Below, piece by piece: positions 1 through 51,058 of a DNA stretch of 64,000 nt. The notes beneath the pieces are model-generated. The model had not been told where the DNA came from. It did no database searches and saw only the letters and a list, made by a program, of their open reading frames with translations. The position numbers and the translations under genes are program-made. Within the stretch, counting starts at the first letter, position 1. Every line of letters begins with the position of its first letter. This DNA is from Enoplolaimus lenunculus (taxonomy: Eukaryota; Nematoda; Enoplea; Enoplida; Thoracostomopsidae), in contig JASANG010000185.1 in the NCBI GenBank assembly GCA_030248215.1, positions 42,447 through 106,446 on the forward strand, in the 5' to 3' direction.

Positions 1-1
1 A

Positions 2-676
2 AACAAAGAAGTCAACTCAGCTTCAGACAGCCATTCAAAGTTTCGCCAAAAATTTAAACTCAAACCAAGTGATATTGAAAAATTAATGCAACGAAATAGC
101 GATATTTTAGTCGTGAAAACAAAACACGAGGGTGAAGCGTTAGCTGGGAATTGTGACCCCAGTCTCAACAGCAGACGAAATCTGGATGCAATCCAGACGA
201 GCTGCTACTGTACTAATGCACAAACACAGTCGAAAAAACCTGGAAAATGGTATTCGGCTGGAACTGATCAACGCGAAATGTTGAAACCGATCCCAGAAGC
301 GATGATCATTGACGAAGATGTGGCTGAGGCAGCCACAGAAGCCAACAGAGGAATACATTCAGAGGAGAAAAAAGCAATCCCAGACGAAGGTGAAACTGGC
401 GGCAATCCAAAGACAAATCCAGATGACGAAGCAACGTCTTGGCAACAAACGATCCCAGACGCAGCTGATGAACTGAAACGAAAAACGAATCCCGATGAGC
501 GACGACCAAAATTTTATGGATTGAACAGTGCTGGATGGCTCAGACCTGAAATTCCGACAATTACAGTTGAAATGGTAGAAACTGTATTGAATGGAAAAGA
601 TGAAAAATACAGGAATAAAAAGAAAGTGAAGAAAGAGAAAACTATTGATGAAAAGAAAGATATTTTCATCAATGAG
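2..676 (+). CDS. Gene 1 exon (partial): acidic low-complexity N-terminal region
   Basis: Residues 1-225, open to the window edge, so the true start is upstream. Rich in Pro, Asp and Glu with repeated IPDE/NPDE-like motifs, then a Lys-rich stretch (KKKVKKEK). Donor GAG|GTATGT at 677, phase 0. The reading frame runs on to 742, but the strong donor and matching next exon argue for splicing. Confidence 0.75.
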
Positions 677-12600: not shown

Positions 12601-15600
12601 TCAAGTTTGACCAATGAAACAGGCGTTGGTCATGTTCAAATAGGTTTAAATATTTTTAGACACTTGATTTCCAGGCCAGTACTCGAATGTTATTGGTTAT
12701 AATTAAGACAATATAAAGTTGAGTTTTATATGTCCAACCACTGAAATCATGGACAGTTCAACGATTTCAACAATAGATTTTCAGTACACATATGTACGTG
12801 TAACCGAGATTCCAGGTTGCTCAATTCAAATTTCATTCTTAGCTAAAGATCCGTTTTTAGTGAATTTCAGGTTCAGACAATCCAATTTGGAAATTTATTT
12901 TAACCATTCAAATCTTTTGAATTTCACGTTTTTAATTAATAATAATTTAAAATTTTAGGTTCTCGTCCGCCGAGGAAGAACCACAAGCATTAATCAGCGC
13001 AGAAATTATTGTAGAACAAGCGGAACATAAACGCCGAATTCTACACAAAACAGCTGCAATTGACGTTAAGGAAGACGAAAATGTACCTCACGGGTAAGAC
13101 ATAACCCTTATTTTCATAAGTATGTTCTTTTCCTTCGTATATAACGTTTCAAGCTGAAATTGTAACACCAATCTGTCTGGTCAGAGGCGTCTACAATGAC
13201 AACTCTGTTGTGCAAGCTTGACGCTCAAGGCTGAGGAGTCTCTAATGTCTTGTAGAGATTGTGTATTGAGTATGCGAGTAATAATTGCTAAACACAATCC
13301 ATTGTTTGTTTTATTTAGCTTACACTGTTTTCACAATTGTTGTCAATGTATACTCAATGTGGGAAGTGGCTAAGTTTTCTTATATTAAAATTCGGATCGT
13401 AATTATTTGAAATGCATTTATCTGTCCAGTTTATAATCTCTGTAGCCATAGAAGAAGAAGCTAAAATTGTCTTTGTATAAACTGTAGTTTGTGTTAATGA
13501 AATGTTTTTTAAATAGTTTGCGTTGGGCTGGTTTATAATAAGTTCTCAGGGGCCGGATGTTAGAGCCATTCAATTCGTGCGACAAACTTACATTTGACGG
13601 AAACTCGTGTATGAAATTTACGTAAAAGTTGCAAAAGCCCTGAGACGTCTTCTTGGAATCGATTCGACTGCAAACTGACTTCAAAAGTTAACAAAAGTTA
13701 CTGATAAGACAAAGCATTTTCATATGTTTGAGATTTCTTTCAAAATACACTTGAAATTAAACATTTACATTGTGTTTCTTCGAATGTTTTCTTTTTTAAA
13801 AATTTAGTTAACTTACCCTTACCAGTTTCACTATTGTTCCAAATTCCACTCCGGTAGATTTAGTACGTTTTAGTTTGGTGCTCCTTCTTTGTTAGTTTCT
13901 GTTGATTTTTCAAACAAAAACACGATGATAACTATTAATCAGGAGTATCCATCTTAGTAGTTTTTGCATTATACAAACGAATCAGCCGTATTCCGTTTTT
14001 GTTTGATCTTAACTCTACTTTTGGCAGATGGACCTTATGTACGTCTCATTAACTTTTAGAAAATTTTTTAGCTTTTGAAAAATAACCGAAAGCATTATTC
14101 AATGAATCAGAACGTTCTATATTTGCTTCGCTTACATGAATTGTACCCAATCAAATTGTATGATCCAGGTTTATTAATGAATGTATGTGCAATCAGTAAT
14201 GTCTTTTGCAATATTTCGCAAAAATGCAATTTTTTTTGTATTCTACAGAAAAGGCGATATTGAAATCCAACAGTGGCAAGACGAACAAACTCAAAGAAAT
14301 CAAAAGGAAGATCAAATTCTGGAATTGCAAAAAATAGAGGAAGAGAAGCGTAAGAAACAAGAGAAAAATGAAGAAAAAGAGCAAAAACGCAAAATCAAAG
14401 AGGAACAATTACGAGAGGCACAGGAAGAAAGAAAACAAACAAAGGAGGAGGAGGAGCACAAGGAGCGTGAGGAAACGGAACGACTGCGTAAGGAAGAGGA
14501 AGAGCGACTACGTAAAGAAGAGGAGGAACGCAGGAAGCGTGAAGAAGAGGAACAACTTCGAAAAAAAGACGAAGAGCGACAGATAAAAGAAGTTGAAGAA
14601 CGCAAGAAGCGGGAGGAAGAGGAACGACAACGCCAAGAAGAGGAGGAGCGCAAGAAGCGGGAGGAAGAGGAACGACTACGCAAGGAAGAGGAAGAGCGAC
14701 AGAAAAAAGAAGAGGAACAACGCAGGAAACGTGAAGAAGAGGAACAACTACGTAAAGAAGAGGAAGAGCGTAATAAGTGTGAGGAAGCGGAACGTCGTCG
14801 TAAGGAAGATGAAGAGCGGCAGAGAAAAGAAGAGGAAGAACGCAGGAAACGTGAAGAAGAGGAACGACTACGTAAGGAAGAAGAAGAGCGACAAAGAAAA
14901 GAAGAGGAAGAACGCAGGAAGCGTGAAGAAGAGGAACGACTACGTAAGGAAGATGAAGAACGACAGAGACAAGAAGAAGAAAAACGCAGGAAGCGTGAAG
15001 AAGAGGAACGACTACGCCAAGAAGAGGAGGAGCGCAAGAAGCGTGAGGAAGAGGAACGACTACGTAAGGAAGAGGAAGAGCGACAAAGAAAAGAAGATGA
15101 AGAACGCAGGAAGCGTGAAGAAGAGGAGCGACTGCGTAAGGAAGAGAAAGAGCGACAGAGACAAGAAGAAGAAAAACGCAGGAAGCGTGAAGAAGAGGAA
15201 CGACTACGCCGAAAAGAGGAGGAACGCAGGAAGCGTGAAGAAGAGGAACAACTTCGAAAAAAAGACGAAGAGCGACAGATAAAAGAAGTTGAAGAACGCA
15301 AGAAGCGGGAGGAAGAGGAACGACAACGCCAAGAAGAGGAGGAGCGCAAGAAGCGGGAGGAAGAGGAACGACTACGCAAGGAAGAGGAAGAGCGACAGAA
15401 AAAAGAAGAGGAACAACGCAGGAAACGTGAAGAAGAGGAACAACTACGTAAAGAAGAGGAAGAGCGTAATAAGTGTGAGGAAGCGGAACGTCTTCGTAAG
15501 GAAGATGAAGAGCGGCAGAGAAAAGAAGAGGAAGAACGCAGGAAACGTGAAGAAGAGGAACGACTACGTAAGGAAGAAGAAGAGCGACAAAGAAAAGAAG

Positions 15601-18600
15601 AGGAAGAACGCAGGAAGCGTGAAGAAGAGGAACGACTACGTAAGGAAGACGAAGAGCGACAGAGACAAGAAAAAGAAAAACGCAGGAAGCGTGAAGAAGA
15701 GGAACGACTACGCCAAGAAGAGGAGGAGCGCAAGAAGCGTGAGGAAGAGGAACGACTACGTAAGGAAGAGGAAGAGCGACAAAGAAAAGAAGATGAAGAA
15801 CGCAGGAAGCGTGAAGAAGAGGAGCGACTGCGTAAGGAAGAGAAAGAGCGACAGAGACAAGAAGAAGAAAAACGCAGGAAGCGTGAAGAAGAGGAACGAC
15901 TACGCCGAGAAGAGGAGGAGCGCAAGAAGCGTGAGGAAGAGGAACGACTACGTAAGGAAGAGGAAGAGCGACAAAGAAAAGAAGATGAAGAACGCAGAAA
16001 GCGTGAAGAAGAGGAACGACTACGTAAGGAAGAGGAAGAGCGACAGAGACAAGAAGATGAAAAACGCAGGAAGCGTGAAGAAGAGGAACGACTACGCCAA
16101 GAAGAGGAGGAGCGCAAGAAGCGTGAGGAAGCGGAACGACTACGTAAGGAAGAGCAAGAGCGACAAAGAAAAGAAGAAGAAAAACGCAGGAAGCGTGAAG
16201 AAGAAGAACGACTACGTAAGGAAGAAGAACAGCGACAGAGACAAGAAGAAGAAAAACGCAGGAAGCGTGAAGAAGAGGAACGACTACGCCAAGAAGAGGA
16301 GGAGCGCAAGAAGCGTGAGGAAGACGAACGACTACGTAAGGAAGAGGAAGAGCGACAGAGACGAGAAGAAGAAAAACGCAGGAAGCGTGAAGAAGAAGAA
16401 CGACTACGTAAGGAAGAGGAAGAGCGACAGAGAGAAGAAGAAGAAAAACTCAGGAAGCGTGAAGAAGAAGAACGACTACGCCAAGAAGAGGAGGAGCGCA
16501 AAAAGCGTGAAGAAGAGGAACGACAACGTAAGGAAGAGGAAGAGCGACAGAGACAAGAAGAAGAAAAACGCAGGAAGCGTGAAGAAGAAGAAGAAGAAGA
16601 ACGACTACGTAAGGAAGCGGAAGAGCGACAGAGACAAGAAGAAAAACGCAGGAAGCGTGAAGAAGAAGAACGACTGCGCCAAGAAGAGGAGGAGCGCAAG
16701 AAGCGTGAAGAAGAGGAACGACTACGTAAGGAAGAGGAAGAGCGACAGAGACAAGAAGAAGAAAAACGCAGGAAGCATGAAGAAGAAGAACGACTACGTA
16801 AGGAAGAGGAAGAGCGACAGAGACAAGAAGAAAAACGCAGGAAGCGTGAAGAAGAACGACTACGCCAAGAAGAGGAGGAGCGCAACAAGCGTGAAGAAGA
16901 GGAACGACTACGTAAGGAAGAGGAAGAGCGACAGAGACAAGAAGAAGAAAAACGCAAGAAGCGTGAGGAAGAGGAACGACTACGTAAGGAAGAGGAAGAG
17001 CGACAAAGAAAAGAAGAGGAAGAACGCAAAAAGCGTGACGAAGAGGAGCGACTGCGGAAAGAAGAGGAAGAAAGACTTCTGAAAGAAGAACAGCGAATTA
17101 AACAAATAGCGATAACCCGAATGCAGGACGAAATGCTTCTGTTAGAACCATATCAACTGCTCAGCATTGAAGAGTCTGACTTCGCAGTTAAAATTTCCGA
17201 GTTTACGGAAGAAGCCATTGCTGCTTTAAAGTAAATAATACTGTAAAATTCAGCGTTGTTGACACGTTCTCACGTTGTGAAACAGCCATATTTAGATTCG
17301 AAATGTGTTACTAAAGCTTGTAGTGAAATTTGATATTCCTATCTTTGTTTTTAAATTTTCCTAAACAAGTGTGTTTTACATATGCCTTGGTTAAACTATT
17401 TGAAAACAAGCAGCAGTGTAGCAAAAGACAGGATAAGAAACCTTACTGTCAAATTACATTGAAAGAATGTATTTCTGCAAAAATGTATGTTTCTATTGCT
17501 GTGCGGGCTAAAAAAACTAAAATATTAACTTACCCGCATGCATATTTTACGTTTTAATTTGATTCAATTTCAAGCTGAGAATTGATCTCCAGAATCTTCA
17601 ACGGTGAGCTTGTAAGAGAGCTTTGCTTACATATGCTCAACCCTCCAGCTTAAATACAATATAAATACAACTGCTTGTTAAAATTTTAACGAAGCCTTTT
17701 TTATTTCAGCGAACGTCGACAACAGGCAAAAGAACAGAATGAAAAACTGAAAACAATCACTGATAAAGAACTTGCCGAATTGAATAAACCAGAACTCAAC
17801 AAACTGTTTGAAGTTTTAGCACCCGAGGAACGTGAAAAATTTCGAATTCGAGTAGAAATTGCTGTAGAAAGACTTCAAAACGCCAGAAATATTGTAAAAG
17901 CCGCCAAGAAAGGCCCGATGGGACCGGAAGAAATTAATGATAGCGACTTAACTGAGATTGAACCAATGCTTAACAAAGAGGAAATGGAAACCATAAAGTG
18001 AGCGATTTGTTGCAGTAAATTTAAGGCGTCTAACAGAGGCGAACCGAAAGAGTGGATCCATTCCTCGGTACGCCGCCACTGGTATACAGCGATTGAAGCG
18101 AAAAGTTTGCACGGCTTCGTCGTTCAAACCGCTTTAAGTGAATAATGCACCGAGGGCAGGATGTAAACATATTTTTGCGCATTCGAATTGAGTAGATAAC
18201 GTTCAATGACTGAAACTGAATTTATTACTGAAAATCCAGTAACAGTGTTATTTTGTCGCATCCATTTAGAAATTTCGGGGCTGTATCTCGTTAAACCTTT
18301 ATACGCCAAGGAAAACATTTTGACTCAAAACTTAAAAATTCTACTAAACATCTGCACAATGTCGAGAACATGAGTATCCCATTTTATATGGCCTCCCGTT
18401 ATATTTTGTAACCTGGTCATTTTAAAATGGCCGGAGGTCAACGTAAGACGGAATCGTATTTTGCAATTTTAGAACAAACCTACGCGAAACAAAACAAGCG
18501 ATGAATGAAATCGCTGGTATGTCTGACAAACAACTTGCAGAACTTAGTCAATCTGAACGAAAAGCAATTTTCAACCAGTTGCCTCAAAATGAAAGGGAAA

Positions 18601-21600
18601 AACAAAAAGTTCGGGCCGAAATCGCCGTTGAGCGTCTGGAAAAGGCCCGAAAAATGTTAACCGCCGCCAAGGAAAGGCCGATTCCACCGGAAGAAGTTAA
18701 TAGCGAACAATTAGCACAACTTGAACAAATGCTTAACACAAACGAAATGAATATTGTAACGTAAGTTTAATTCATGTGTTACTGTTTAAAATCCATTTTG
18801 CTCGACTATTTTTGCTACGAAAAAAATGAAATAAAGGTTCAGAAATACAGATATGAATATTTTTAATTATAAAACCTTGTTACTGTGATATAAAACATCG
18901 AATGACAATTGTTACTACTTTAAGAGAAAACATATCAACAACAAATGCCGCCATAGCGAAAGTCGAGGATATGTCGGATTTGGAATTAGCGGAACTTAGC
19001 AAAACGGAAAAAGAAGAACTTTTTAGCCATTTACCCGTCAATTTAAAGAAACAACAACAGATTCGTGCAGAAATGGCGGTAGAGCGGAGACAAAAGGTTG
19101 TAAAAATTGTTGAGGCAGCCAATGACGGTTCCTTAAGCCGTGAGGAGCCAACTGAAGACGAGATAAATGAATTGGCGGCGGTGATGAGCGAAGAAGAAAC
19201 GAATTTGTTGAGGTAAAATTTAAATTTTTATATATCAATTAGATAGCAAATTTATGCTGGACAAAAAGCAGATATGCAGCAGTGACAGAAATTTCGTGAG
19301 CAAATGACCGAAATGTCAAACTTGATTTGGACCTCAAAATCTAATACAAGATTTTGCATTGAAATTATGGTAAGGGGGCGCTCTCCATCTTGCGGACCCC
19401 CCGTAAAAAAGAGCATATCTTGTCTTATGATCTTTCTATACCCATTATACATAAGAGTAAGTCCAAATCTAAGCCAAAGCCTAAACCTAAACGTGATTTT
19501 ATTAGCCTGAAGTCAATGTCTACTTTTATTATTCGTGTCAGATTATACCATGCCGAATTGAAGCGACTGCGTGACATCATTTTATCAATGAATGACGAAA
19601 CACTCATCAACCAATCAGAATCCGATCTGCAAAATTACCTGACGTCATTAAACGAACAAGAAAAGCATGAAATTCAACAACGATTAAGCAAATTGCGATC
19701 TCGAGGGGAAACGGCAATTGCAATGTCAAATACAGAACTTGCAGCGATTAGTGATGTTCAATTTGAAGAATTCAAAAATTGTGTTCCAAAACAACCGATG
19801 GCAAAGCTTAGGTAAGTGCAGGCCAGTGCTCAGAGATGGAGGCAACATATGCTTAAACCCACCATTTGAAAAATTTTAGCCCAGTTTGCAAGTCATTGGA
19901 AATGTCTACATTTTCCTTCTGAAATACCACAGTATGTAAAACTGGCGGCGGCATTTTTGTGATGTGAAGTATGCTATAACCTTCAAAATAGGTGAAAAAT
20001 ACATATCAGATTAAGATCAGGGTTCGAGATCTGTCTTCAGATTACAAACTTGAAATAAATTTAAAAAGTAATTGAAATTTGCCAAAAAATCCAAATCAGT
20101 TGAGTTGTCATTTTAGGAATACGGACCAGTTTTATTAAGAATTAATTTTGAGCTTTTGACGCCCATTTTTACGTTTATACACATTTGTGAATAATAATTC
20201 TGTTGATTTCGGATTTCAGAGATCGTAGACGTGACATAATTGAGATGCGAGCAATCATCCTAAACGCGGATGACGCATTTGTTGCCCAACTCACTCAACC
20301 ACAACTTGACCGCTACAGGTTGTACTTGAGTGAGTCAGAAGTTGCACAACTCGACGCTCGCATTGCCGACATCGATACAAGACGTGCTCGAGTGTTCAAT
20401 GCGACTCCAGTTGAACTCGCGTTGATGTCCGATGCGGAGTTCGAGTCGTTCAACCCAATACTCGCCCGTGATGATTACCAACAGCTCAGGTGCTTTTCAT
20501 AGTTATGTTCGTTCTGCTAAAAATTTTGCAATGCAAATTATTCATTTGAAGATTACCAAGTTACTTCACTGGCATTGTATGGTCTTTTTAGATAGCAATA
20601 GTTAATTCCCGAAAATCACTTATCTTTTACTAATAAACCGTTTGATAAAAAACTTATTTGGGATGGCTGTTTTCTAGAATGGAACATGCAACGATGCAGG
20701 GAAAGATTCGGAATGTCTCGGTGCGGGAGATGCTTTTATTTAAAGACAAGCAGAAACATCAAAATATGCATATTTTATGCGTTTCCTCACTGTGTTTAGC
20801 AAATTTTCATCCTAAGAAATAAAGGTAAACATTGAAAATTATGTTTTGGATGGTAAATTTCAGGTTTTGCGGTAAAAGTACAAAAGTTTGTCGGATCACT
20901 TTTCTTGTTTGTGTTTTAAAATTATCTGAACTCAAATTTAGTTCACTTAATTGTAGTTCAAAACGTACGGAAGCTCAGCTGAAACGTCAAGATATATTCG
21001 AATTAACTCAACTTGAGTTGGCTCAATACTCGACGGCAGAACTTGCGAGCAGCTGTCAGCCATTTTTGATGGACACTGAATGGACTGGGATTAAAGACAA
21101 GGCCGATGCTGCTAGAAATCGCCGCCGTTATGTTCTCGGTCTTCGGCCTTACGAATTGGCGGTCTGTATGGACCGACAAACGTTAGATGGATATGCTGAT
21201 GTGCTGAGTGAAAAAGAGTTGGATAATTTGAGGTTTGAAATTTTAATCAGGAGTGCGAACAAGCGGGTAGGAATTAACGGCAACTGCTACATTGCAAAGA
21301 CTCTTATACACTTTCACCTGCATTTACACATATGCTTAGTTAAAAGGTCAAGGTTTGATTTAGACAAAGGCTTGCCTATACGTAGCCTAAATCTGAGCAT
21401 TTTTGCCTAAATCTGAGAACTTTTGCCTAAACCTGAGAACCTTTGCCTAAACCTGAGAACTTTTGCCTAAACCTGAGAACCTTTGCCTAAACCTGAGAAC
21501 TTTTGCCTAAACCTGAGAACTTTTGCCTAAACCTGAGAACCTTTGCCTAAACCTGAGAACTTTTGCCTAAACCTGAGAACCTTTGCCTAAACCTGAGAAC

Positions 21601-24600
21601 TTTTGCCTAAACCTGAGAACCTTTGCCTAAACCTGAGAGCCTAACGTGGGTACAATTTTCTTGGAGAAAATGAATGTGGGGAAAATTTTCACAGCAGACT
21701 TCAGCTTGTTCTATTTGAAGTGATAATAACTACGCTGGCGTGACCAAAAACAATCTGGCCATGATTTCATTTCAGAAGGGCGAAGCCTTTATAGAAGTTT
21801 TTGTTTGAATTCTTTGATTTTAGCGGATTTATTTCAAGGACTGTAAAGGTACATTTTTCTCGTTTCCATTTTGTTTATAAATGTAACTCACTGGCTTCAG
21901 ATGAATTTGATTCGACCGTTAAAATGAATTTCAAACAGGAATCGGAATACTTTCAGATCCAAACAATCAAAATATGTCAAACTACGGAATACAATATTGG
22001 CTGCTTCTGAAGCCGAATTGGCAACATTAACACGATCTGAACTCGCAGAGCACTCAGAACCGTTGAGTAACGATGACCGCGATTCCATCTATGCGCGATA
22101 CGACGCACTGCAAGATGCACGAAGGACTGCTAAAGCAATTACTGCACTGCAGTTGGCAATTGCAACTCAACAACAGTTTGAATCAATGTTGAAACCGTTG
22201 GTGCTAGAAGATGACAAGGAAACGCTCATGTATGGAGTAATATTATTTGAAAATTACTCAATAACAAAATGTATAATGTTTTTAGTATTTGTTAAGGTTT
22301 ACTTGAACAACAGTTAACTTTATAGAAGAAGGTGTTCAGGAAACGAAATATATATGAAAACTGCATACAAATCGGTTAAATTTACCTAAAATGCCCTCAA
22401 TGGTTGATACATAGCGAATGCGGAATACGTTCCCCCAACCCTGATATGCAGAAAATTTTCAATGCTAATTTACTGTTCATCTTGAAGCTCATATTATCGT
22501 CACCAACTCAACTTTGAAAACTGAAATTTTCACGCAAAAGCGTTCCTTTGTGCGCAATTAACTTCCTTTAGTCGGTGCTCTATTTTGCAAAGCAAATGGT
22601 TCATTTTTGTTGCAGAACCCGTCGTGAAAAGGCGGTCAGCCTTCGAGCCGAAGCTCTCGTCCTTAGCGATGTGGTCCTTGCGACTACGGCCGCATCAGGA
22701 CTGACTCGATTTAAACCGGTGCTCACTGAGCAAGAATTTGAAGATTTGCTTGATAGACGGGATTCAATGGCTAAATTGAAGAAAATGTTGCTCAATGCAA
22801 GCGGTCTTGAACTTGCTTTGATGCCTGAATCACAGTTTACTCACGCTAGAGCTACGTTGAGCACAAGCGAAGCAGACAGCGTTACGTGAGTTTTTTGAAA
22901 GTTTGAATTTTAAGTGTGAAGTGACTGCTTGCAAATACCTTAGCAACATTTCTAAATTTTAAACATTCTTCATTATCGTTAACATTTTGAATGCCGATCG
23001 GCAAATCAAATTTCCAACTGATTAAATTTAACACCTTTGATTACTGGTTGGGAAGATGGTTTCTCATCATGCATGTAATTGTAATAATTGTGAGAAATTG
23101 CATGAATTGTGTTGCTTTTCAGTTTGCTTGTTTAAAACAACTTTCCTGTAATTTGAACCATAAAAAGAATTAATTAGTGATATACACAGTGATTTTTAGC
23201 CACCCCGAAGATGTCAGTTCAAAAACTATCAATGTTTCTCTTGAAAAAGGCCTTTGAAACACTAAAAGATATTTGTCGTCTGAAGAGACTTGCATCTCAA
23301 ACAGTTTGCGAATTTCATATTGAAATCACTAATTTCTATCACTTGTTCGTAGCTGATCAGCATCAAGTGTGAAACCAGGAAGGTCGTTAAGGGTCAAAAT
23401 CAATTTTGAAACTTCTGTCCAGTTCCTTATAACAGTTAATTCAGATAATGACAAAACAAGTAACTTCCGTTTTAAAATTTTATAAAATGTTTACTTCACT
23501 TTCCTTTCTAAAATCTTGGTCACACTCTTTATTGGGAAACTCAAGCTACCAGCAGCATAATGAGCAGCCTCAGTACAGAATTGCGAACCTCCTAAAATGA
23601 GTTTACACCAACATAAAAACAAAGTCGGTTCAAAACAAAAATACCAAATTCTTTTAATTTGCAAAAAAACTTGGAAAAAACAATTTTAACGTTTTTTCAA
23701 CTCTGTCTTTAATTTTTATCTGCAGCTTTGATTGTTTTTTGTTTCGCTGCAACAGCTGTTACAGAAATGTTATAGCGGGTTTTCAAGGATTGTTTTTACT
23801 CACAATTACAGTAAAAATATTACAATTATGGATCATCCACGTAATATTGTCTACGCTACTGTAAAAAATTGTCCACACACCTGGCATTAAGGGCGGGACA
23901 AAACGACAATGTTCTTAAGCTATAAAGACTTTACAGAAGGTATAGATAGATAGTGGGTTTTGAAAGCAGGTCCTTCGAAGGGACTAAGGACAATGTAGAC
24001 ACTGTCTGGACACAGTGTCTGACAATACGAGTTCCTTCGAACAGACTCTGTATAATTGCAAAGCAAAGTTCCTTCCGACAAACTTTGTGTTGCGAAATAA
24101 GCTGAGTCCCTTCTGACAGACTCTGGACAAAACAGTTGCCCTTTAAATAGCGTATTGACAATTTAGCATGGGTATGGACGGCAACGTGACCAAGCATAGG
24201 TCGTCCATAGCGAGTGCGAGTTGTCAGTAGGGTCTACACAGGATATGATTGACATTTGGACATGTAATTTGGAAACAGTAAAATTACAGACTTAGGGGCT
24301 CGTACGTGTGGACAATTTTTTACAGTAGCGTAGACAGTATAACGTGGATGACCCATTATGGTTTAAAACAGGAAGTTTCAATGCAGTGTTTGTGTTTTGA
24401 TTTGTTGCTATCATATAGAATACATTTAAAACAAGACATACAATAGCTTTTGGGCGTCGAAATTTTTGGTATGCGGCTACTGAAGTCAAAACAATTTTGT
24501 CAACGCCGGATGCCATTAAAATAGTCAAAAAGTGCAGCGCCAGCTTAAGTCTTAGGCCCTGGCTTAAATTCAAACGCTTATGCAGTAAGATTGCATTTTA

Positions 24601-27600: not shown

Positions 27601-30600
27601 AGTTCCGGTTGCGGTATCCGGCAAATTAATATCCGGTCACACCCTGCTTATGCTATGTCATAATCAGCAGATTGCGGGGCCCCGCCTACGACTTTGTTCG
27701 TCGATTATTATATACATCGTGTGACAGCAACGCCAATTTCAGCCTTGCACGCAATCAATCTCAATCGACCAGAGCAAAAGCGTTGAGTGTCACCGATAAT
27801 GATTTGTCCCAACTGACAGACTCGGAGCTCAGTTCGTTCAAGCCACATTTGTTCCCGAAAGAACTTGACCGACTCAATCGACGGCTTGGAGCAATTTTAG
27901 AGTCGCGTCAAAAAATTATAAACGCCAGCGTTCGTGAACTTGTCGCAATGAAAACTCCACAGTTTGAACGTCGGATTCAACTGCTCAAACCACATGAAGC
28001 GAATGAGCTACGGTCAGTTCGAATAGATGTAATATTCCGCTGAATTGTTCAGGAAAATGTTATCGCGAGCTACGTTCAGAAGCTACAAACATTTCAATTG
28101 AGTTTTATTTTCCACAAATGAAATCTTTACCCATTTCTGCAATGTGATCAACATTTGTTAACAGTTGGTGTTAAGTAATTGTATGTTTTTAACCAGAAAA
28201 ATAGTGAGCGTGCAAATTTAGCAATTTTAGAATTTGATGCCCATCTGATGCACAAATTTACAGATGCATAAATGCATATGTTCGTCCGTTTCAATACCGA
28301 TCGGTTACTTGTAATAAGTGTTACACACATTTTAGAATATAATTTATGTCTACAGACAAACCCGTCAATCTGCAATTGATCGCCGCTCGGATATAATGTT
28401 TCGTACCGGAGACGAACTGGCCGCCTTAGATCAGACAGAACTCGACAAATTTGCCGACATTTTAAGTCAGGAAGAACTGAACGACATCCGATCGAAGCGG
28501 AACCAAGTAACTCAGATGCAAGACCGTATACGATGTGCAACGCTACTGCAGTTGATTTGCATGTCAGACACCGAATTTACATCCTGTGCTGTGACATTAC
28601 CTATTCATGATCGAGAATATTACAGGTAAAGTCGACTCAAAATGAATCATTCTTTTTCAGCAAAGTTTACCAAATGTGCCAAAAACAAGCTGTTGCGTAT
28701 CAATGAATGGGTTTGTAAAATTTATTTAAGTTTTTAACTTAAGTTGTATCTTAAGGAACTACTTAAGTTGCCGACTTAAGTAAATATTTGAGGAAACATC
28801 AACAAATGTCAAATGTGAGTCGTTGCCATAAGTAATAGTTTTGCTTTATATAAAAGAGGAATCATGAGTCTACAATTTCAGTTACACCAAGGTCAGTATG
28901 GCCGAACGGTTAATTGGTAATGTATCAATTTATTCAGCGACTTAAGTTTTTACTTTGGTACGCTTTTAAAAGCGACAAAATGGTTAAGTATTACTTAGCA
29001 CGTACTTAAGTACTAAGTTGTACTTGGTTTCGGAAACCCAGCCAAGATTACTAGTCAACGTAGTTGAACATTACAAACAAATTAAAATCATTTTTGCTAA
29101 TAACGCGTGTGTACCGTGTTTCCAATCTATATCGTAAAGCTGGAAGGCCCCACATACGTATTTTGGGCAACTTTCCAGCATTACTTGGTTTACAATAATT
29201 TCATAGAAAATACAGGTGATTGTTCTATGAAAGGTAGATTTGCAAGGAAATTTTTGTGCTTTTGCTACTTTTTGCATTGCGCAAAACTGGCAGTCTAGAA
29301 GAATATTAACTCTCATCATATCAAAGCTTTTGTTTGCTATCATGAGTTCTACAAACTATCCAGAATGATTTGACTTAAAATGCATTCAAGAAATCATGCA
29401 ATATTCACACATTCGTTTTAGAACAGACTTTTATTGTGAGGATTCTTGAATACTGCTAATACTGGATCATAGCCCAAAATACGCGTATCGAAATTTACTC
29501 AAATTTAATGTGGAGAATGCGATCAAAATAATTAAAATCAAAACAACGCCATTGTAACAATAATTATTACTCATTTATCAATTTAAGTTCAAATTTTAGA
29601 GAACTCCGCGATTATGGTCAATTTGCTCGAGAAGAAATACTGTCATCAGAAGACAGATATTATGCTCAATTGACTCGCGATGAACTCAAAGAGTACGAAC
29701 ATGTGCTCGGGCGGACTGAATTTACATTTATGCAACAAAGACATGAGTGTTTGCTTAAAAAACAGGCGTGGTTAAGATCAAAATCTCAACTTGAGTTGGG
29801 GCTGATGGGATACAAAGAGTTTATTTTTGCATGCGATGTCCTCAAAGAAGATGAACGTATTGAAATTGGGTACGTTTACCCAGTTCAATATATTTATTAC
29901 GCAACACCTTCCAAAATATCTTGCGTACACCGTGTAATAATTTTCCGTTGTCTGAAAGGTAAAACAGGTTGTGAATATTCAAATGTGTAAATATTTGCAG
30001 TTGACACTATTTAGTAACCAATTGAACTTGGCCAAGCAGTGGCAAATTTGTCATTTTACGGTTTAGAAGGATACTTTTTGTGGTCTGAAATTTTTCGGTT
30101 TTAAATCAATTTCTAAGAATTTTTGGATATTTATGATTGACGAATTGCGCCGAAATCGCTAATGTTTTTGAATTTGTGTTGTAAACTCGCCATATTTGTT
30201 TAGCCTGTTTGGCTAGAAAACACACTGTGAGCTTCACATTAGCTATTTGCACCGCATAATTTTGCGTATAGCAAAGCAACGGGTAAATAAATCTTCCTTA
30301 TCACTTGTGGAATTGCCACATCGGTCAGTGCATTCTGAAATGGATAAAATTATTCCAATTTCAGTCTCACTCGTGAAGCTGTTGTAACTCGTCGGCATTG
30401 GATTTTAAACGCTCCAGAACGAGCCCTGGCTCGACTGACTGACTCAGAATTTGCTGAATTTGAGTCGATTTTAACTCCAGCCGAATTGGAGTCATTGACT
30501 CCGAAAAGGCGAGTTGTAGTTGAACGGCGTGAGAAAGTCCTGAGCACTGGGTATGCAGACTTGGCTCTCATGACAAACGAGCAACTCAACTCTGAGTTGG

Positions 30601-33600
30601 AATTATTTCGATCAGAAGAACGCCAAGAGTTGCTGTAAGTCTATACTCGATTATCAGAGCGTTTGCCATAGAGTCGTCAACGAAGCCACAAAAACTATAA
30701 CTTTATCTGTGTTTATTGAACGATTAGATTTAAAAGTATGAAGTTAACGTTGCGTTAAAGCGAACAGCAACACATAATAATTTTGAGAACCAGTCGATGC
30801 CACAAAAATGTATAGCAGAAATAAGGCAAATGATCCATCAAACTTAAACAATATTTATTATACATTGCAGACTGTAAATACTTAAGGATGAAAAAGACGA
30901 AAGAATATCTGTTCAGTGATACCCTTTTTCAAAAAAAAAAATAATATAAATTTTAATATAAATTGTGTAAAAAATATAAAATAAAAACATTGTGTTTCAA
31001 GACATGACGACATCTTCGAGTTTGAGCACCAAGTTCTTAGAGTACAACACTGATGCTAAATGAATTTTATCTGACAGCTCCGAGCTTTAATTTGAGTCCT
31101 GAAATCAGGTGACATGAAAAATTAAAAGTATTCAGTTGGAAAATGGTTACACAAATCAAATAATATTTACTGCAGTTATTTTCAGCAAACGACGCTCGGA
31201 TGCAATCGAAGAACGCCATCAAATTGAAACCATGTCAGATAAGCGTATTATGGCGTTGTCAAGTGATAGAATGCGTGAAATCGACGCGTTTCTTACCCCA
31301 GAAGAACAGTCAGAATTCCTGAGTCGGCATTCAAAGCTTCGTGCCTTAAAGTGGACCCTGCTTGGGGGTCCGATTCAAGAATTGCTCACACTTAATGATG
31401 ATGATTTTTGTGACGCCCTAGGACTTTTACACGTTGACGAATTGACTCGGGTTACGTAAGTTAAACCATACTTATCTACCAACTTCCAAGCAGTCAAAAT
31501 ACTTTCCAGTGTTGCATCCAGGGTTGAAGTACGTATATGGGGGCTCTTGTTCTTTTATGGCAGTACATTTGATATTTAGAAATTTTAATTCATTCACCAG
31601 TTTTCCAATGTCTTATCACTTGCGTAATTGTACTTGAAAATAATTGGAGTCCTCTCATTTTGAAAACCCTTGATTAAGCTTTGTTTACACCAAAATGTGA
31701 TACTATTAATATAAGCTAAAATATATTCATACAAATTCAAATTTTGTTTATTAATTTCAGCGAACTCGTTATTCTTAGCACCTATCGGTATTTAGTATAT
31801 AATTGTTTTCAAACAAGCCAACTGCGGCATCTGGTGATGTAGAAATCTACAGAAATGAAAAAACTTTCAACTGTCAGATGTGCTAAATTCTTCACTTGAT
31901 CATTTACTGGCTTTTAGGTCACATGGCCAAACACCAACTGGTGATAGACGCTACAAATATTTAATAATACGTTAATGCGGTCCAAATAACACAGTTACAC
32001 CTTCAGGCAATCGTGTAAAACGGCTTAAAAGGCCGACACGGCCAGAAAAACGGCTCGGGATTCGTGAGTTTATCTTTGGATCCACCACTTTTACATTTTA
32101 CCCGTTCAATAGTTTTTACCCAAAGTGATTCTCAATCCTAAATTCCTCGTAAAATATTTTAAGAAAACGGCGAACGGACGCTTTAACATTAAAAAAGCGT
32201 GCAATGAGCGCAACTTCTCAACAACTGGGTTGTATGTCTGCATCAGAAATTTCCCAGCTCAAAAGTGTTTTATATCCGAATGAAGCCAGTGTTGTACAAC
32301 AACGTTTAGATGTTGCCATCATTCAACGCAATGCAACTTTAAATGCAACGCAATACGATTTAGCAGTCATGGATGTGGCAGACTTTGAAGAAAAGTTGAC
32401 ATATTTAACACAAGAAGAAGTACTAACAGTCAGGTACTGATTACATTTAATTACCAGCTGTACAAATTTTGTACGACAGCGATGATAATCGACTAAAAAT
32501 ATTTGTTTAACTTAACCACATACTTTTTACATCATCATCATTATTATTATTATTATTTTTATTATTATTTTTTCTTTTCTAAAGAAAAAGTTGGTTGCAA
32601 AATTATTGCGAAAACTTAAATTTTTCTTTGCGCCTTCACATGACTGTTTTATTACAAAGAATGGATTTTACGAAAAATGGTCATATTTGACCCATAAAGT
32701 TTCATCAATATCCAATGGTGCAGAAGGTTGGGTCTTTAAGTATCGGTGGAACACAACAGATTAAAGCGGTCATTACATTTACTAATTTATATCAAAGTAA
32801 CAAGTAAGAGCTGACATATTTGACTTAACAAATATGAACTCAAGGCTGTTTAGGTTATCGCTAACGACACAGGAAGTATCATTTGAGGACTTGAGGACAC
32901 GTCAAATATAAGGTGGTATGTTACATTTTCGTATTTACAAGTCGTAATTTTTTACGTCACATTTTACTTTTTAGAACTCAACGCCAAGAAGCTATTGAAA
33001 AACGTGATTTTCTATTGCGTTCAACCGGGTTCGAACTCCTGACCTCTGGAATAGAAAACGATTCGGGAGATAAATTGGCCGCTGAGTACGGCGATTTATT
33101 ATGCGAAGAAGAACTTGATGATCTTGAAGAAAAACTAAGAGATGCAGATAATTCAACGACAACATTTAACATTCAATTGGACTTTGGTAAACCTCAAGTT
33201 GACAAATGCGGATCGGCCGATGGCGATGAATGCAACACCAGCGAACGTGTGAAAGGGAACACTTTAGAATGTAAAATGTCGAAAGAAGAATATGATGATT
33301 CAGATGAAACCAGGTAAGCATTTTTGACAAAAATTGTGCTGTTTTAATGAGAATGACGATGTCACCTGACTTAGAAGATACAATTTTCCGTCCTGAAATT
33401 AATAAATGTGGTCGATGACGACTTTGAATTTAAACATTGAAAATGCAAATGAGAAAATAAACACGGGACAAAAAATGATTTGGATGAAACCTCACGATCC
33501 TAAAATATACAATTTTGTTACTTGTACATAGCAACCATTTAAAAATAGCAACATTGTGTTTGCAAGTTATTGTCGAAAATGCATTAATTTTACTACAATT

Positions 33601-36600
33601 TGTTTTCAGTTAATCGTACGTCTCTGAACGCATCAGCGCCTTCGCAACACGTGAATCATTCTACTGCCCACATATTTGTTCACCGTTCGAAAATTGATTT
33701 ACTTACCCGACAACCTAAATTATTAATTAAAATTGCGTTTTAGTAATTTTGTGTTATTTTAATTAATAATTTAATAAAATTTTGTAATGTTTTAATTAAT
33801 TTTTAACATTTTTAATATTGCACGTGGTTAAGTAAAATTTTGTTGAATTTTAACATGTATTCATTATAAATATTATATTCTATAACCGTATATTCTCTCT
33901 ACGAAGAAGCCATTAATTGTAAGAGTGTAAAAGAGTTAAAAATTGTAAATTTAACTTGTTTTGCAAGAGTAGTATTACCGGAGTTGTTTTGAAATATTGT
34001 ACACGTATATATTTTAACCTGGTAGAACTCTTGTCAGTGAACACATTACTACTAAAACAGGAGGTAAGTAATTTTAATTTTAGTATTTTTAAGTTATTTT
34101 AACAATTTTTGCTTAATCAATTTAATTTTGGCTTAATTACTATGGGATTTGCATGGCACTCAGTTTGATTTTTCTACTGGTTTCTTGTATTTGTTGTCGA
34201 CTGCCTGAAGCGATTGTTTTTGGGTATTTGCTATAAGTCTTTGTGTATTTTTTAAGTTCCACCGTCTGGCAGGTGTTTGTTTAAGCTAAAAGTTCTGTAA
34301 CTTAAGCCTAAGCTTCAGCCTATTTTATTAATCTAGTCATTGTGTGTGTGGAAAGTTTTTGTGAAGGAAAAGTAAACAAGAATCAGTGTTTTGTTTCCAA
34401 TTTCTATTTTTTAAAAATACTCAAGTAATTTGACACATTGCACATATTTCAGTGTTTTATTATTTACTCGTTAGTTTTGCCGTTGCTAACAATTATAATT
34501 CAGCGGTTTCAACAGGAAATATATTTTACACAAATACGGAACAGGAATTGAATGTTTGCAGGAAATTCCTGTGAAACCCTGCTACTTACTAACCAATCAT
34601 TGTAGTTTATTTTTGTAAACTTAAGACCTTGTCTGGCTTACGATTTGTATTTTATACTGTTTTATCACAACGTAATCTCTTAAACTTTGATAGTATTGCT
34701 GCTGTTTTGTGAATGCCACAAAACAGGCGACTAATAAAAGGTTGAGCAAATATTAACTAATGGGGCATATGATTGGTATCCCATGTGCGATATCAAGTCG
34801 GCCACGTTAGTAAACTGATGAGAAGAAAAACTGCGCAAATTGGCAGGAATTGGTTATTTTTGCCTTCAAAAATTTATTTGTTTTATTAAAGCGATTAAGT
34901 ACGTCAACCGCGCTGTACAATCACTGCCACATAAAATTGCAACTGATAATAAACCACATAAAAAACAAAAAGGCTTCCGAGCGATGCGTTTAAACATTAA
35001 CCGCAATCGCAGGAAACCAACTTTGTTCTTTAATACCAGCCAGCCGGATCGAAATGTCCTTTCTGATATCTCCATTCACATGTTTATATACTCGCAAATA
35101 CAATAATTTTTGTCAAACTTGTTCGGCATTCATGTGATACTGAATAAGCTTAAACGATCAGGATCTTCTTTGACTGGTAATATTTCATTTCTGATTGTAA
35201 TTACTCATCGTTCCGAAACACAACTTTTCAAAATGTTGTGTTCATCGCTTAATATCAATCAACTGCGAACGCATGCAGTCGATTAACTGCTCAAAGTAAA
35301 AAAAATGGATTTCAAAATGTTTGTCCGCTGTGCACAAGATTTGATAACTTAAATTTCACAACTTAGGCTGACACCAAAAAAGCGATTACGACTTTTTCAA
35401 TGTGAAAAATATCGAAAGTCCACTGTTTGTCCTTTACTCAGCTTTCTGCTATGAAAACCAAACTTAATCTTTCAAAACATCCTATAATCATGGCCTTACG
35501 TAGCGGATGTTTTAAAAGTACAAATTTATTATAATTTTGAAAAATGTTATGCGTTTCAACTTAGAGAAATAAAGCTGACTGATAATTTCCGACCAAACGT
35601 ATAAATACCCAGATTTATAGACTGTACGTAAATTTCAGATCAAAACGCAAAAATGCACTCGAAGTGCGAATTCACATATTTGAGCTGGACGATTTATCGC
35701 TACTAAATTTATCGGGTGCCAACAGGCGGAAATATTTCGCTTATTTGACCACAGAAGAACTCCAAGAACTCGAGATGAGAATTGACCAAGCAAAACGGAT
35801 TCGAGAAAAGTTGCTCAAAGCAAAACCGGTGGATCTGGGCACAATGAACGATGCTGATTTTGAAGCGTTTGCTCAACTGCTGAGTCCAGATGAATTTAAA
35901 AAGATCAGGTATATGATTTTAAAGCTGAAAACCATAAACAACCTGCTTAGAACTGATGATGAGGTTCGAAATTATTTTATCATACTTCAACAATCCTTAG
36001 CGGAAAAACTCTACGAAAAATTAATGCCAAGGCTTATTTGAGATTTCAGCCATTATAATTTTTAGGCTTAAATCTTAGTGTCAAATTCCAATAACATTTA
36101 TCCGCTTCTATTAAGATGGCAAAAACTAAAAAAATTTATCACAGTTTATTTTTACTTGACGTAATAGAAAAAACTTTCACGAACAAAACACTACAATGCA
36201 CATATGACAAATCATAGTGAGATGTTACTCAATGGTGTAATTAACTTTGCTTTCTTTATTGAAAAATGCACTTAGCGCCGTATTTTGGCCAGATAAAAGA
36301 TGGCATCTGGATCTGATATTAGCTGGCAACCGGTATCATCATACGTGTATTATACTAACTCATGCGCTCATATTCTCTAAATTATATTGCAACTGCTATC
36401 CATTAGTTATAGGTCTTGTAACTTTTAAATTGGCGAATAGAAACCTTCAAAATGTGTGTTTGAGTTGTACTGCTTTTAAGCAGAGTTTCAAAGCCACAGT
36501 TGCCGTAATTCGCTTGTTATTAGCCTACACGCAGTTGAAAATACTGCTCTTCGTGTTATGTCTTCTGGATCCGTCTTCCCAAACGTTTGTAGTGCCTTTC

Positions 36601-39600
36601 ACGAATTGATGATATATTTTGTAGCTTTCCAACGAGTGAATGTTGTACTGTTGCGGATGGTTTACTGCATTTCAGTGCAATGCGTCATGAAGCGTTAAAA
36701 GGTAGAAATATCCTAATGAACAGCGATGATCGACAACTTGCGGAACTCAGTGCTGAAGACCGGAAACGATATTTGACGTTTATGAAACCGGATGAAGCCA
36801 CTGAAATCAGGCAAAAATTTGAGAAAATTTTCACTCAAATAAACGAAATTCGCAACTTGGCTCCGTATCAACTTGTAGATCTGTCCGCAGACGAATTCAG
36901 CAAACATTCGCAAGCGTTGCCAATAGTCGAAGTCGAAGCGATGCGGTGAGGATTTGTGGGAATCCTTTGCCAATTTTGTTTTAAAAATTTAAATTTCACG
37001 TTATATTTAAAACAGGTTTTGAAAATTTAGTCATAATAATTTTTATGCTACTTTTAGTGACAAAAGGTCAAAAGGTGCCGCCGCTCGTAAACAGCTTACG
37101 TCACTCACTGATCCGGAACTCATTCAACTCGACTCAAGCGATCTTGCTCGCTTGCTTGAATTCGTTAGTCCAAGTGAGTCACGCGAGGTGGGGCAGCGAC
37201 TGGAAACACTTCGATCTCAGCGCGAAGAGTTGTTGACCTCGACTCCAGTTGAACTGGCAACAATGGACGACGCTGATTTCAAAGAGAAGATTGTTCTGGT
37301 GAACGATAAGGAAAAAGAAAAGTTAAGGTAAGAAGTTGTAAGTCAAGGAATGATAAGGTGGGTAAACATGCAACGCCGGAAATTATTCATTTCAACGTTA
37401 CAATGTGTTTTATTAGCTGAATGGCTGAAATATGTTGCACAGGTATAATGCGGCATCAATTAAGTTCGATGCACGGGTGCAAGATTTCGCGTCCGACAAC
37501 AAATCAATTTCAAGTTTCGCAGCTGCAAATACTTCAAATTTGCACGTTTGAAAGCCATTGCAAGTCGCTTTAGTTTTGAATCTGCATTTTGATCGGCCAA
37601 TCGCAAAATATTGTGTAATGGGCTTCTGAATTAATTCAAATTTTTTGAATTTATTTAAGGAACTTGAAATAGTTCAAATATTAACTTTGTTTGATATTTC
37701 CCTGTTCTGTCCAAGGCAGGTCGGACTGGATTTGCATGTACTGAGTACTAAACAGTCATTTTAGCTTTGAAATCTATTTCAAGTGTCAAGAAATTTCGAT
37801 AAAAACCTACTGTGCGTGTGAATGTTTCACGTAACTGAAGCTTGTAGCTGCAAGTTTTGTTCGATCTTGCAGCTGTAAACTAAATGATATTTATTTGCAA
37901 ACATTTGCAGTTGCAAGTTATTCGTGCAAGTTACAACTGGTAGTTCTCGCTGTAAATACTTGCATGTGTGAATACGGCTTAAGCTTGGTGCGTTGGTCGC
38001 AATATGGAAGTTTAAAACATTGAAATTTTTGCTACATGCGCTTTGAAAGCAGTAACAATGATTGAGCAATTAAAATGTTTTGAAATTTTTTGATTTATAT
38101 GGAACCTGGTTCATGGAGTAATTTCATTAAATATACCATGTAAACAGGTTTTAGCGTTTGATGAACTTTATTAAAATCTCTCTGAAAACTGAGAGATAAT
38201 TTTAAGGGTTGCGCTATACTTTTGTTGACATCCGGCGCCATCGGTAACCCGTACGGCACCTTCCGTCACCGTGAGTTACCCGTCCGGCCCCGTCTGCCAA
38301 CGTCCGTCACCATGCGGTATTGTACGTGAATTACGCACGTACAAATGACTGTAACTAAAATTTTTAGCTTAAAAATTGTCCGCAACCTATTCTCGTCTGA
38401 CTATTTCGAAGAGTGGATGATTTTCACAAGAGTGTGCAAATGGGTACATTCTGTACACAAAACAATGTACCCAGCGAACGTTGTATTTGTGACCTACCCC
38501 CCCTTATTTGGGGTGGTACGTTGAACCAATATTTTGAATTTTAGCTAAACTCGTTCGGATTATATTTTAACTCCTATGTTTACTATGTAGATTAAGTGGT
38601 GAACACCCCCAAATCAGGGGGTCGAGCAAAAATGCAACGCGTGCTGGCACACTTTGTGCCATGCACTACCGCATGAGTTGCACACTCTTCTGCAAGTGGA
38701 CATCATCCGCTTTTGCTATTTCCGATTGATTATTGTCAAAGCCATTTTCGAACATAAATTACAATCTAAAACTCTGAAACGCAAAGGGCGTTTTTGCTTT
38801 ATGCGGTAAAATATGAAAAACACAGCAATAAACTTTAATTTATTGAAAATTTGTAGAACACAACGAACGAAAATCTTAGAAGACCGTTCATTTGTGCTTA
38901 CGTCGTCAAATTTGGAATTAATTCAACTTAACGCCGACAACAAATTAGTCGAATACTTGAAATTATTAACACCAGACGAAACGAAAATCGTGCAAGCGAA
39001 GCTTGAGTCAACAGAAATGCTGCGAAATGAACTGCTTACAGCTGCTTCCAATTGCCCGTATACATTAGCAGCAATAAGCAGCGATGATTTTGAAACAAAA
39101 ATGAAAAATTTTAAGTCGGATGAATGGGAAAATATCAGGTTTGGAGGTTATTTGATAATTTTGAAGTTTTTGTGGCTTTATGTTTTTGTAGTTGTGAAAT
39201 GGGTTGACCAATGAGAAAGATACGTTTCAGGTAAAAAATGCTGGTCATGATTTACATATAAATGTATTGGAACTGTAGGTCAAATGAGATTACGTGGCTA
39301 AAATGAGATACACAAATTGCCTTCCTACTTACAGTAAGCGATGTTTTAATTCCAATTTAAAATTAGATCTTAGATGAAATAGCAAATAATCATGAGAGAA
39401 AAGGTTAAATGATAATAAAATTTCTTATCCGTTTTCCTTATTTCAGGGCACAACGTGATTGTGCGGTTGAAGCGTCAAAATTGCTATCTGCAACCGCTCG
39501 AGAACTGCTATCTTTAAGTGATTTGGGAAGTTTTCAACCACTTCTCGGTTATTTAAATGCAACGGATGCTAATCAGTTAAGCTCCAAGCTTTCGGAGGCC

Positions 39601-42600
39601 CAAGCAAAAAGAGTTTTCTTATCTGAAATGCCGTTATACGAACTGGGATCTTTCCCTGAAGAAAAGTTCTCCGTTTATGAGGAATTATTCGAGCCAGAAC
39701 AATGGCAACAGTTGTGGTATGAATTTATATGAAATTTGTAGTAATTTTAACATTTCAATCTGTTACATTTAAACACTTATAATTAAGTTTGTTGAAATGA
39801 AGAAACAAATTTGTGTGGATATTAAATAATGCCAGATTCCGCCACAATGAAATACAATTCTCGATAGAAGTTTAGACGAATGTTATCATTAATGTGTCAG
39901 ATAAAACACTTTAAATTTTAAAAATTATTTGCTTACTTTTTCCAAGTGTAACAAGCATCGCCCTTTTAATCTGTTTCAGCTTTTATACATTTCCTATTCA
40001 CAAGCTTAAGCCTGATTTGAAACCTAAGCCTATGAGTAATCTTAAGTCTAATTCGAAGCCTGTACAGAAAATTGAAAAATTCGAAAACATTGGAGTGTGA
40101 GTCTACTAGAATTACATTTTATGTTAATCATAATTCTACGGATCTTATCAGTGTGAAGTGAAACATTTAGAGAATGCTACTGTGATGTGGTAAACTCAGT
40201 TAACTGCATGTACGACCTTTAGATTGGTTCAGTAGGCAAATGTTTTATTTTGATGTTCTCCATTCATGTGGTTCATAAAAGCAATGCCAGATTTTGAGCA
40301 ATTTTTAAGTGGAATTTTATATTTTTATTCTGTAAAATGTATTTTTTCGCGTTTTTGACTATTAATTGAGGTGCAATTTTACACTCACCGGTGGACAGGA
40401 CGTCCTGGTCGCCTCACTTTCATCTCTCGCTGAAGCAAATATTGGGATTTTAAAATAAATTATACTCAAATTTTATGACAATCTCATATATGTTGTATAT
40501 AAGGTTTAAGATTTTAAGTGCTTTGCAGTGCTGTACTGTATGTTTACAAAGAATGCTTCAATTGTGACATTTGATTTTTCAGCTAATATAATTAGATTAG
40601 TTGAAAATTATTAATACTCCAGAGCTAAACTTTAGCAACCGCAGCCGGCTCTGAGCTTCAGCTAACGCTCTTGCTCTGAGTTTACATACTGAGTACGCGA
40701 GTCTAAGCAACGTTGAATTCAAATGCGTCGTTCAACGCGTTGTTGATATTGTCAACAGACGTGAGCGAGCATTTCAACTCAGCTCACTTCACTTGACGCG
40801 GCCCTACTGGACAAATGTTAACTGGAGATGATTTCAATTCTGTTTTGAGTAAATCAGAATGAAGGGAACGCAGTTTACATATCTCATTCACGTTTTTGAC
40901 CACGGGAAAATCTAACATTATATTCCATGATTGTATAACTTTCTTGCGAACAAGCAAAGCTCATGAACAATTGTTTTAACATCTAAAGACTATTCTAAAA
41001 TCTGCTAAAACTGCTGGTTTGAATCTGGAGGTATTCCAAATGCATATTTTTCGTAGCCTTTTTGTATCCGGCTTTAGTTGTAACTGTACGAGAAGATTGA
41101 AGGTTTAAATTTTCTAATAATTTTCACAGTTCAATGATATGATAGAAATTATGAGCAACTTTTTGACTTAAACGTGTGTTTTCATCTTTAAACGTTTGCG
41201 AATTACTTCATTTCGAAAGTTGGAATTTTTGTAGACCAATTCGTGTGTCTTTTTCATTGTTAATTATTTGTTACGTTTTGCCGTTATGATTGTGTCACTA
41301 ACCTTTAAGTTTCTGATTATTGTCTACTCTCCATTGCTTTCATTTTGTCTTTCTCCCTTATTCCTAATCGCCTTCAAATCTTATTTATCATAAAATTTGC
41401 TAATAATCTTTCTCCGACCAGTTTAAACTGTTTCAGTTGAAATATATTTTTAATTTTCAGTTAATTTCGAAACTAAAATTGGATTTTAAGACATTTATTG
41501 TCCCACTTGTTTGTAAGAGTTTGATACGCATGCAGATAAGGAACTCGTGCCTTGTACAGATATTGTACTGGGTATATCTTCTATAATGAAAAACACAAAG
41601 CAATGTGCGTGTCGAGCGAGTTGTTTTTGTTAAATATCTACAAGCCGGTGTAGCATATAATATTAACTCCCTTAAAAATTAACTCCCCCAATCACTATTA
41701 TATGTAATTTTGACTCCCCCAATTAATATATAATATTGAATTGAGAGCTATAATTATATGCAACATTGGTGTTAACAAAAAATGGTGGACTTTGGACAGC
41801 TTCGCCTATTTTAACCTTTGTTGACATGCATTTAACTTCATTTCAAATTATCTGTTGAGCGCTTAAAATCAGTTATTTGATGTTAAACCCCGCAAATCAC
41901 AAGTCCAATCATACAGAATTTAATAACCTCATTCGAATCGTCTACAAATCATGAACGACCAGGCGAATCGAAAAAAATTAACTGCAGTCCGCTTCAATAC
42001 TTCAGTTCAAGTAAATCAGTGGAATGCTTAAAAATCCGAATTTGTGTCTACTTGGCTGTGTGTTCCTTTATCACTTACATATGATGCGTGTATTAATAGC
42101 CGAAAACTGGGTCATACTGTAATTTGAGATGTATCATTTGCACAGAAAAACGTTAAAAATGAAATTGGTCCATTTTGTTTTGGTCCTTGTTTAGTGCCCA
42201 TCCCAAGCGTTGTTTCATTCAAACGAAGCATATCCCACACACTTCTGTTTGTTACTTTGCTATAATCATAAGCCTCAGTCAATTGTACTTTATGCAGTCT
42301 TTATGTGCGGGACAAGTTTTTGTGGAAGGTAAACGCATTTGTTTTCATAAACATACGTTTGCAACTTTTTAATTGTTGTAAAATTGAATTTTAAACATTT
42401 TAGCGAAACTCGAGCCAGCTGTCAAGTGAAACGTGAACAAATTTTAATTTTGGACGGCGAGGCGTTGTTGCGACTTGAGCAAACTGATCCAACTCAATTC
42501 GAAGCATATTTTGAATATTTGACTCCCGATGAAATTGGATCAATTCAGTTGAAACTTGACGACGAAAAGGTATCAGTGATGCGGCTTATGTGTTTAGCAA

Positions 42601-51058: not shown

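Follow-up and report, generated by a model that had tools for sequence, protein, structure and literature searches.

The locus described here raises the question of what kind of protein would combine an array of helical modules with a long charged helix and a vWA domain of the copine type, and whether these parts belong to one gene at all. The window, by which we mean the whole stretch of 64,000 nt that was analysed, lies on contig C917; a paralogue was found on contig C1293 and a third array locus on contig C29. Such a combination had been proposed in the initial annotation of this DNA, and within the window the observation was confirmed by a profile of the array exons, by the paralogue and by the match of the C-terminus to the Copine family.

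Gene model and extent of the locus

Exons were modelled with a home-made splice/codon dynamic programme, in which the vWA exons were placed manually and a number of small, weak exons were kept. A first model of 101 exons and 16,138 nt was a clear over-prediction and was replaced by a later one, in which the window holds 52 exons with a spliced length of 13,993 nt, or 4,664 codons including the stop, and the only stop is the TAG at 51058 (Table 1). The earlier count had been 47 exons and 13,770 nt, which differs slightly from ours.

The initial annotation placed the feature at 2..51058, but the gene is not confined to the window. Coordinate 2 is not its start, as C917:40081-43185 forms a single 1,035-codon open frame running into the window, and seven upstream exons of the X/Y kind described below are conserved in C1293, up to 12 kb upstream of the window. 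The build first described, of array, charged helix and copine vWA, was thus retained but proved incomplete, since the upstream DNA adds a second array of repeats and possibly a membrane anchor, which make the protein longer. The whole model, from the window and the upstream exons of C917, comes to ~6,500 residues, and the gene spans about 26 to 93.5 kb of the contig, between neighbouring genes.

Several other features were noted on C917. An animal haem peroxidase gene lies at window 55968-58870 on the minus strand, convergent with the array gene, with three frames matching PF03098 (best E 4.6e-50), and an eIF2A-domain exon lies at the far 5' end of the contig. One tandem repeat (20 nt unit, 12.7 copies, window 21385-21638) sits inside an intron, and another (30 nt unit, 10.3 copies, 98% alike) occupies window 62116-62424.

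Table 1 Features of the array gene within the window, in window coordinates.
Feature	Position	Strand	Basis
3' part of large low-complexity polar exon	1..676	+	exon C917:41725-43122 (model), starting upstream of the window; 1,035-codon open frame; no Pfam family
Two polar exons ahead of the array	2142-2578, 3120-3388	+	exon model; no Pfam family
Array, first part: five module exons	4369-4658, 5022-5297, 6709-7001, 8009-8287, 11837-12100	+	profile matches, exon model
Charged exon	14249..17230	+	composition, charge spacing, translation, tandem repeats
Array, second part: full modules of ~270-288 nt, nearly all phase 2/2	17710..39716	+	profile, exon model; predicted structures of 20221-20487 and 35640-35906
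Exon with a non-module tail as its second half	32975-33313	+	within the second array part
Last, truncated module	42404..42569	+	profile E 1.3e-12 (itself a seed); exon end from model
Ser/Thr/Lys-rich linker exons	43152-43217, 43759-43976, 45402-45507, 46110-46249	+	exon model
Copine-type vWA, seven exons	47613-47800, 48433-48533, 48816-48948, 49372-49490, 49841-49941, 50490-50589, 50945-51058	+	joined frame, Copine E 2.6e-66, paralogue identity

Array module, charged exon and copine head

A profile of the array module picked out 28 plus-strand stretches in the window, each with an E-value no higher than 4.6e-9, although the result is circular for the 26 of them that seeded the profile (the non-seeds lie at 4378 and 26084). 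The same profile matched 32 stretches of C1293 at E 2.5e-6 or better, and as none of these had been used to build it, they independently support the array as real. Among the model exons of 255-300 nt, phase 2 at both ends was found in 22 of 26 on C917 and in 29 of 30 on C1293; the four C917 exceptions comprise two non-array exons (window 3120-3388 and C917:37321-37601) and two modules (at window 4369 and 6709). Such near-uniform phase 2/2 is a signature of tandem exon duplication.

Each array exon consists of two homologous halves of ~45 residues, so that the array holds about 60 half-modules. Aligned with hhalign, the A and B halves reached a probability of 97.9 (E 3.1e-13), and in a shuffle control 16/26 B halves and 20/26 A halves beat the best of 520 shuffled halves. 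AlphaFold2, given an alignment of the window's own exons only, predicted two modules (20221-20487 and 35640-35906) with pLDDT values of 95.2 and 95.4 and an identical layout, namely two short helices followed by a 22-residue helix, twice over. In these models the last short helix would probably join the first helix of the next exon into another long helix across the exon joint.

For the identity of the module, a Pfam search with 54 modules reached no family cut-off among the best 25 of 58 weak families, of which the best was the ALTTAQ repeat (4 members, E 0.0027). Among natural proteins in the PDB, the EHR of MafG matched best by sequence, ungapped over 39-42 residues, at E 4e-4 to 3e-3 with 26 modules and 2e-4 to 8e-4 with 54 modules (PDB 1k1v, 7x5e, 3a5t). 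In a gapless test, 25/54 modules exceeded the 99% shuffle level against the EHR, compared with 2/54 against the reversed EHR; bZIP_Maf in Pfam was touched by 1/54 modules (E 0.035). However, the 54-module PDB search was topped by HeliScrew4 (E 1.7e-6, best single stretch 0.0096), and since this outscores the Maf EHR in total, the EHR-like motif may be convergent.

Foldseek returned nothing at E 0.001 or better for the two predicted modules: for one, Maf took ranks 1-3 at a non-significant E of 0.88-2.9, and for the other, MgtE and FliG led while MafG came at ranks 4 and 21, none of them significant. Assignment to a known helical repeat or known fold was rejected, because no Pfam cut-off was reached among those 25 families, no Foldseek match was significant and the leading names disagreed. 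By its sequence the module may be called EHR-like, with common ancestry with the Maf EHR as a candidate explanation, and it probably represents a new domain family. Phage records gave no match to the array module.

The charged exon within the array (993 full codons) has a core of 890 residues, 832 of which are E, R, K, Q or D, and opposite charges stand at i,i+4 in 624 cases, compared with 332 in shuffles. Hydrophobic residues number 51 in this core and follow no heptad; instead, 34 of the 51 fall at one position modulo 8, that is, at 8-residue spacing. A coiled coil was rejected for this exon on account of the missing heptad and the mere 51 hydrophobics in 890 residues. The charged region fits an ER/K single alpha-helix of ~890 residues, which would be expected to be monomeric in solution, and given the rise of 0.15 nm per residue in an alpha-helix its length would be ~130 nm if fully helical. 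Read from the translation, the last ~40 residues of the exon look half-module-like, with a profile match of just E 11; on this reading the long helix may be an inter-module helix that has been lengthened enormously.

Downstream of the array, the C-terminus joined from 46110 contains no stop until the TAG, and it matches Copine PF07002 with 223.7 bits against a cut-off of 27 (E 2.6e-66). The residues of the MIDAS motif (DxTxS, T, D) are in place in the joined translation, including VADGQ, and likewise in the C1293 paralogue, and metal binding is predicted from them. Between the two paralogues, 166 of 219 vWA residues are identical, and identical nucleotides occur at 172, 191 and 88 of the 219 first, second and third codon positions, respectively, a pattern that indicates coding constraint and thus selection on the vWA.

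The absence of C2 and RING domains, claimed from the start, was borne out in the parts scanned with Pfam: no C2 domain appeared in the array exons, the joined N-terminal model or the linker, and no RING in the array exons, the joined N-terminal and C-terminal parts or the linker. A genome-wide C2 search also gave no match on C917 or C1293, with weak sensitivity, as among five other copine contigs it recovered a same-strand upstream C2 for C275 alone. These further contigs with copine domains are C603, C566, C275, C1107 and C706. The suggestion of an atypical copine of the nematode type without C2 is supported by the C-terminal copine domain, by the lack of a visible C2 and by 116 genomic hits to the N-terminal domain of nematode cuticle collagens. 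The canonical SL1 spliced leader had 0 exact matches in the genome, so that the usual chromadorean signature is missing, and it is the cuticle collagen that identifies the genome as a nematode's; the genome may lie outside Chromadorea, or the assembly may lack this repeat. Cytochrome oxidase I gave no match either, and the mitochondrial genome is apparently not in the assembly.

Upstream exons, the paralogue and a third locus

Upstream of the window, C917:28962-35905 holds alternating exons of ~50 residues that form six X-Y pairs. Phase 1/1 was found in 12 of the 17 model exons of 140-200 nt, and the remaining five include linker and vWA exons. The X/Y pair had no PDB match better than E 0.96 and no Pfam family backed by more than 1/10 members, and in the genome it gave 4 matches, on C917 and C1293 only. 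In their alternating strand-helix-strand look the exons resembled SEA domains. Still further upstream, in exon C917:26636-27213, a 19-residue hydrophobic stretch (Kyte-Doolittle mean 2.16) precedes lysines and arginines. This is a possible membrane anchor, short and assigned to the gene only by the exon model, in which the start exon is missing; the C1293 contig ends before the counterpart of this exon.

The C1293 locus, which is unlinked to the C917 locus, repeats this plan: both carry X/Y exons, a module array, a linker exon and a copine vWA on one strand. On C1293 ~32 array exons are followed by a linker exon and then by the copine domain, in the order and strand seen on C917. The linker exon 46110-46249 has its counterpart at C1293:34697-34567, with phases 0/2 in both and the common start ETPSMRKR. 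BLASTP of the two loci aligned two collinear series of seven exons each, one upstream (E 1.2e-4 to 5e-12) and the other at the C-terminus (E of 1e-16 or less in the best rows); many non-collinear matches (dispersed repeats, low complexity, antisense frames) were set aside. Among the copine loci of the genome that were compared, the nearest relative of all seven C-terminal exons, in both directions, was the other array locus.

Because C1293 repeats the order, the strand, the linker exon and its phase, there is strong evidence, drawn from sequence comparison, that the array and the vWA form one gene, and we infer a single transcript. The alternative considered with the initial annotation, that array and vWA belong to separate genes, is thereby made unlikely. 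The C1293 model has no ER/K exon, which indicates that the plan can do without the long helix.

Across the genome, a module query matched C917 and C1293 only, 33 times at E 1 or better, and a module query written by eye gave 58 matches at the same level, confined to C917, C1293 and, weakly, C29. On the latter contig seven stretches of C29:523935-528855 matched the 54-module profile as divergent modules, with E-values of 1e-4 or lower. The last of these modules stand in one 3,721-codon open frame that continues to the contig end (~538167) as acidic repeats rich in Ser/Thr, mostly spaced by 1,299 nt and amounting to about 3,000 residues. The genome scan gave no copine match on C29, where the contig breaks inside the acidic repeat, and no X/Y match was found in C29:480001-538169.

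Proposed role and comparison with known proteins

On balance we hold it somewhat probable that this gene encodes, as one protein of ~6,500 residues, an intracellular scaffold that bears tension and belongs with the atypical nematode copines. Its parts follow in the order possible anchor, six X/Y pairs, polar stretch, array with the ~890-residue helix inside, Ser/Lys-rich linker and copine vWA. The N-terminus, as modelled, would sit at a membrane, the array and long helix would bear and buffer tension or set a distance, and the copine head would dock onto a partner at an adhesion site or on the cytoskeleton, by analogy with CPNA-1 at the muscle attachments of C. elegans. Copine vWA domains that have their MIDAS residues dock proteins in a metal-dependent manner. 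The main difference between the paralogues lies in the inserts in or after the array, which would fit a chassis with exchangeable springs or spacers, and these inserts, the location of CPNA-1 and the MIDAS-bearing vWA together favour an intracellular tether under tension. Single alpha-helices are described as constant force springs in the excerpted text of PMC4183817.

More tentatively, and rather doubtfully, the loci may represent a family of giant tension proteins in which an EHR-type unit was amplified, each paralogue has its own spring and at least two carry a copine vWA as docking head. The springs would then be the 890-residue helix in C917 and ~3,000 acidic repeat residues in C29, with none in the C1293 model. 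The EHR-type fold is otherwise known beside the DNA-binding helix of Maf factors.

An intracellular scaffold away from muscle attachments (epidermal, ciliary or nuclear), whose Maf-EHR-like modules bind protein or nucleic acid, would accord with the EHR of MafG as the best natural sequence match and with the many roles of copines. We regard it as unlikely, however, because the modules have no following basic DNA-contact helix or zipper and because the fold search with the second module ranks MgtE and FliG above MafG without significance for any of them. Still harder to sustain is a single extracellular or cuticle/matrix-associated protein, with the X/Y exons as SEA-like adhesion domains and the hydrophobic stretch as a signal or type II anchor. 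The SEA-resembling alternation of the X/Y pair would suit this improbable arrangement, and X/Y domains outside the cell would conflict with the intracellular reading. Against it, the pair has neither a Pfam nor a PDB match, and copine vWA domains are known as intracellular. Long ER/K helices, moreover, typically occur in cytosolic proteins, myosins among them (PMC5378345, in excerpt). Finally, a giant array protein next to a separate short copine-domain gene is very unlikely. The joins 39716/42404 and 42569/47613 do depend on linker exons that are weak and on introns as long as 2.7 kb, and the C29 locus has no copine match up to its contig end. Yet C1293 shows the linker exon again, with order and strand unchanged, the linker and vWA exons join stop-free in matching phase, and the frames scanned between 39716 and 47613 (window:42807-43166, minus strand) revealed no further gene.

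If the tension-bearing intracellular scaffold is the right reading, it would join the Ig/Fn3 proteins and the spectrin family as a third class of giant modular scaffold of the muscle or junction type, would show a diversification of the atypical nematode copines and would define a helical repeat that is not in Pfam. With a stiff charged helix in one paralogue, none in another and apparently a disordered repeat in the third, the loci would also offer a natural comparison of springs on one chassis.

In the open-licence PMC literature, judged mostly by titles and the first lines of abstracts, no protein of this build is described. The copine domain and the atypical nematode copine lacking C2 were already known, whereas the array, the X/Y repeat and the long helix together appear new against that literature. 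The closest comparison, by description rather than by sequence, is C. elegans CPNA-1, a nematode protein of about 1,100 residues with a C-terminal copine domain and no C2. It was reportedly described by Warner et al. in 2013 as having a predicted N-terminal transmembrane stretch as well. In the excerpted account of PMC12812942, CPNA-1 is located at M-lines and dense bodies, is bound by UNC-89 and serves as a scaffold at integrin adhesions, and a module array, X/Y repeat or ER/K helix is not among the features described there.

Canonical copines share the Copine family match with the giant, which differs in having thousands of repeat residues and no recognised C2, and the plant RGLG E3 ligases share the copine-type vWA, whereas no RING was recognised in the scanned parts of the giant. 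Titin, obscurin and comparable elastic giants of muscle offer a functional analogy, as in them too symmetric exons encode tandem modules and spring-like segments are inserted; the nematode giant has no recognised Ig, Fn3, kinase or PEVK, and no homology is claimed. The small Maf EHR may resemble the module in the ungapped 39-42-residue match and in two short helices followed by a long one, but the module is repeated dozens of times and comes without a bZIP. In the Nrf2-MafG structures, as far as the excerpt of PMC9756947 describes them, the EHR has two helices ahead of the long basic helix. The charged helix, in turn, is like the SAH (ER/K) domains of myosins, INCENP and drebrin in its i,i+4 charge pairs and in having no heptad, and compared with the myosin-10 SAH piece of residues 813-909 given in the excerpt of PMC4183817, it extends over ~890 residues in the nematode protein.
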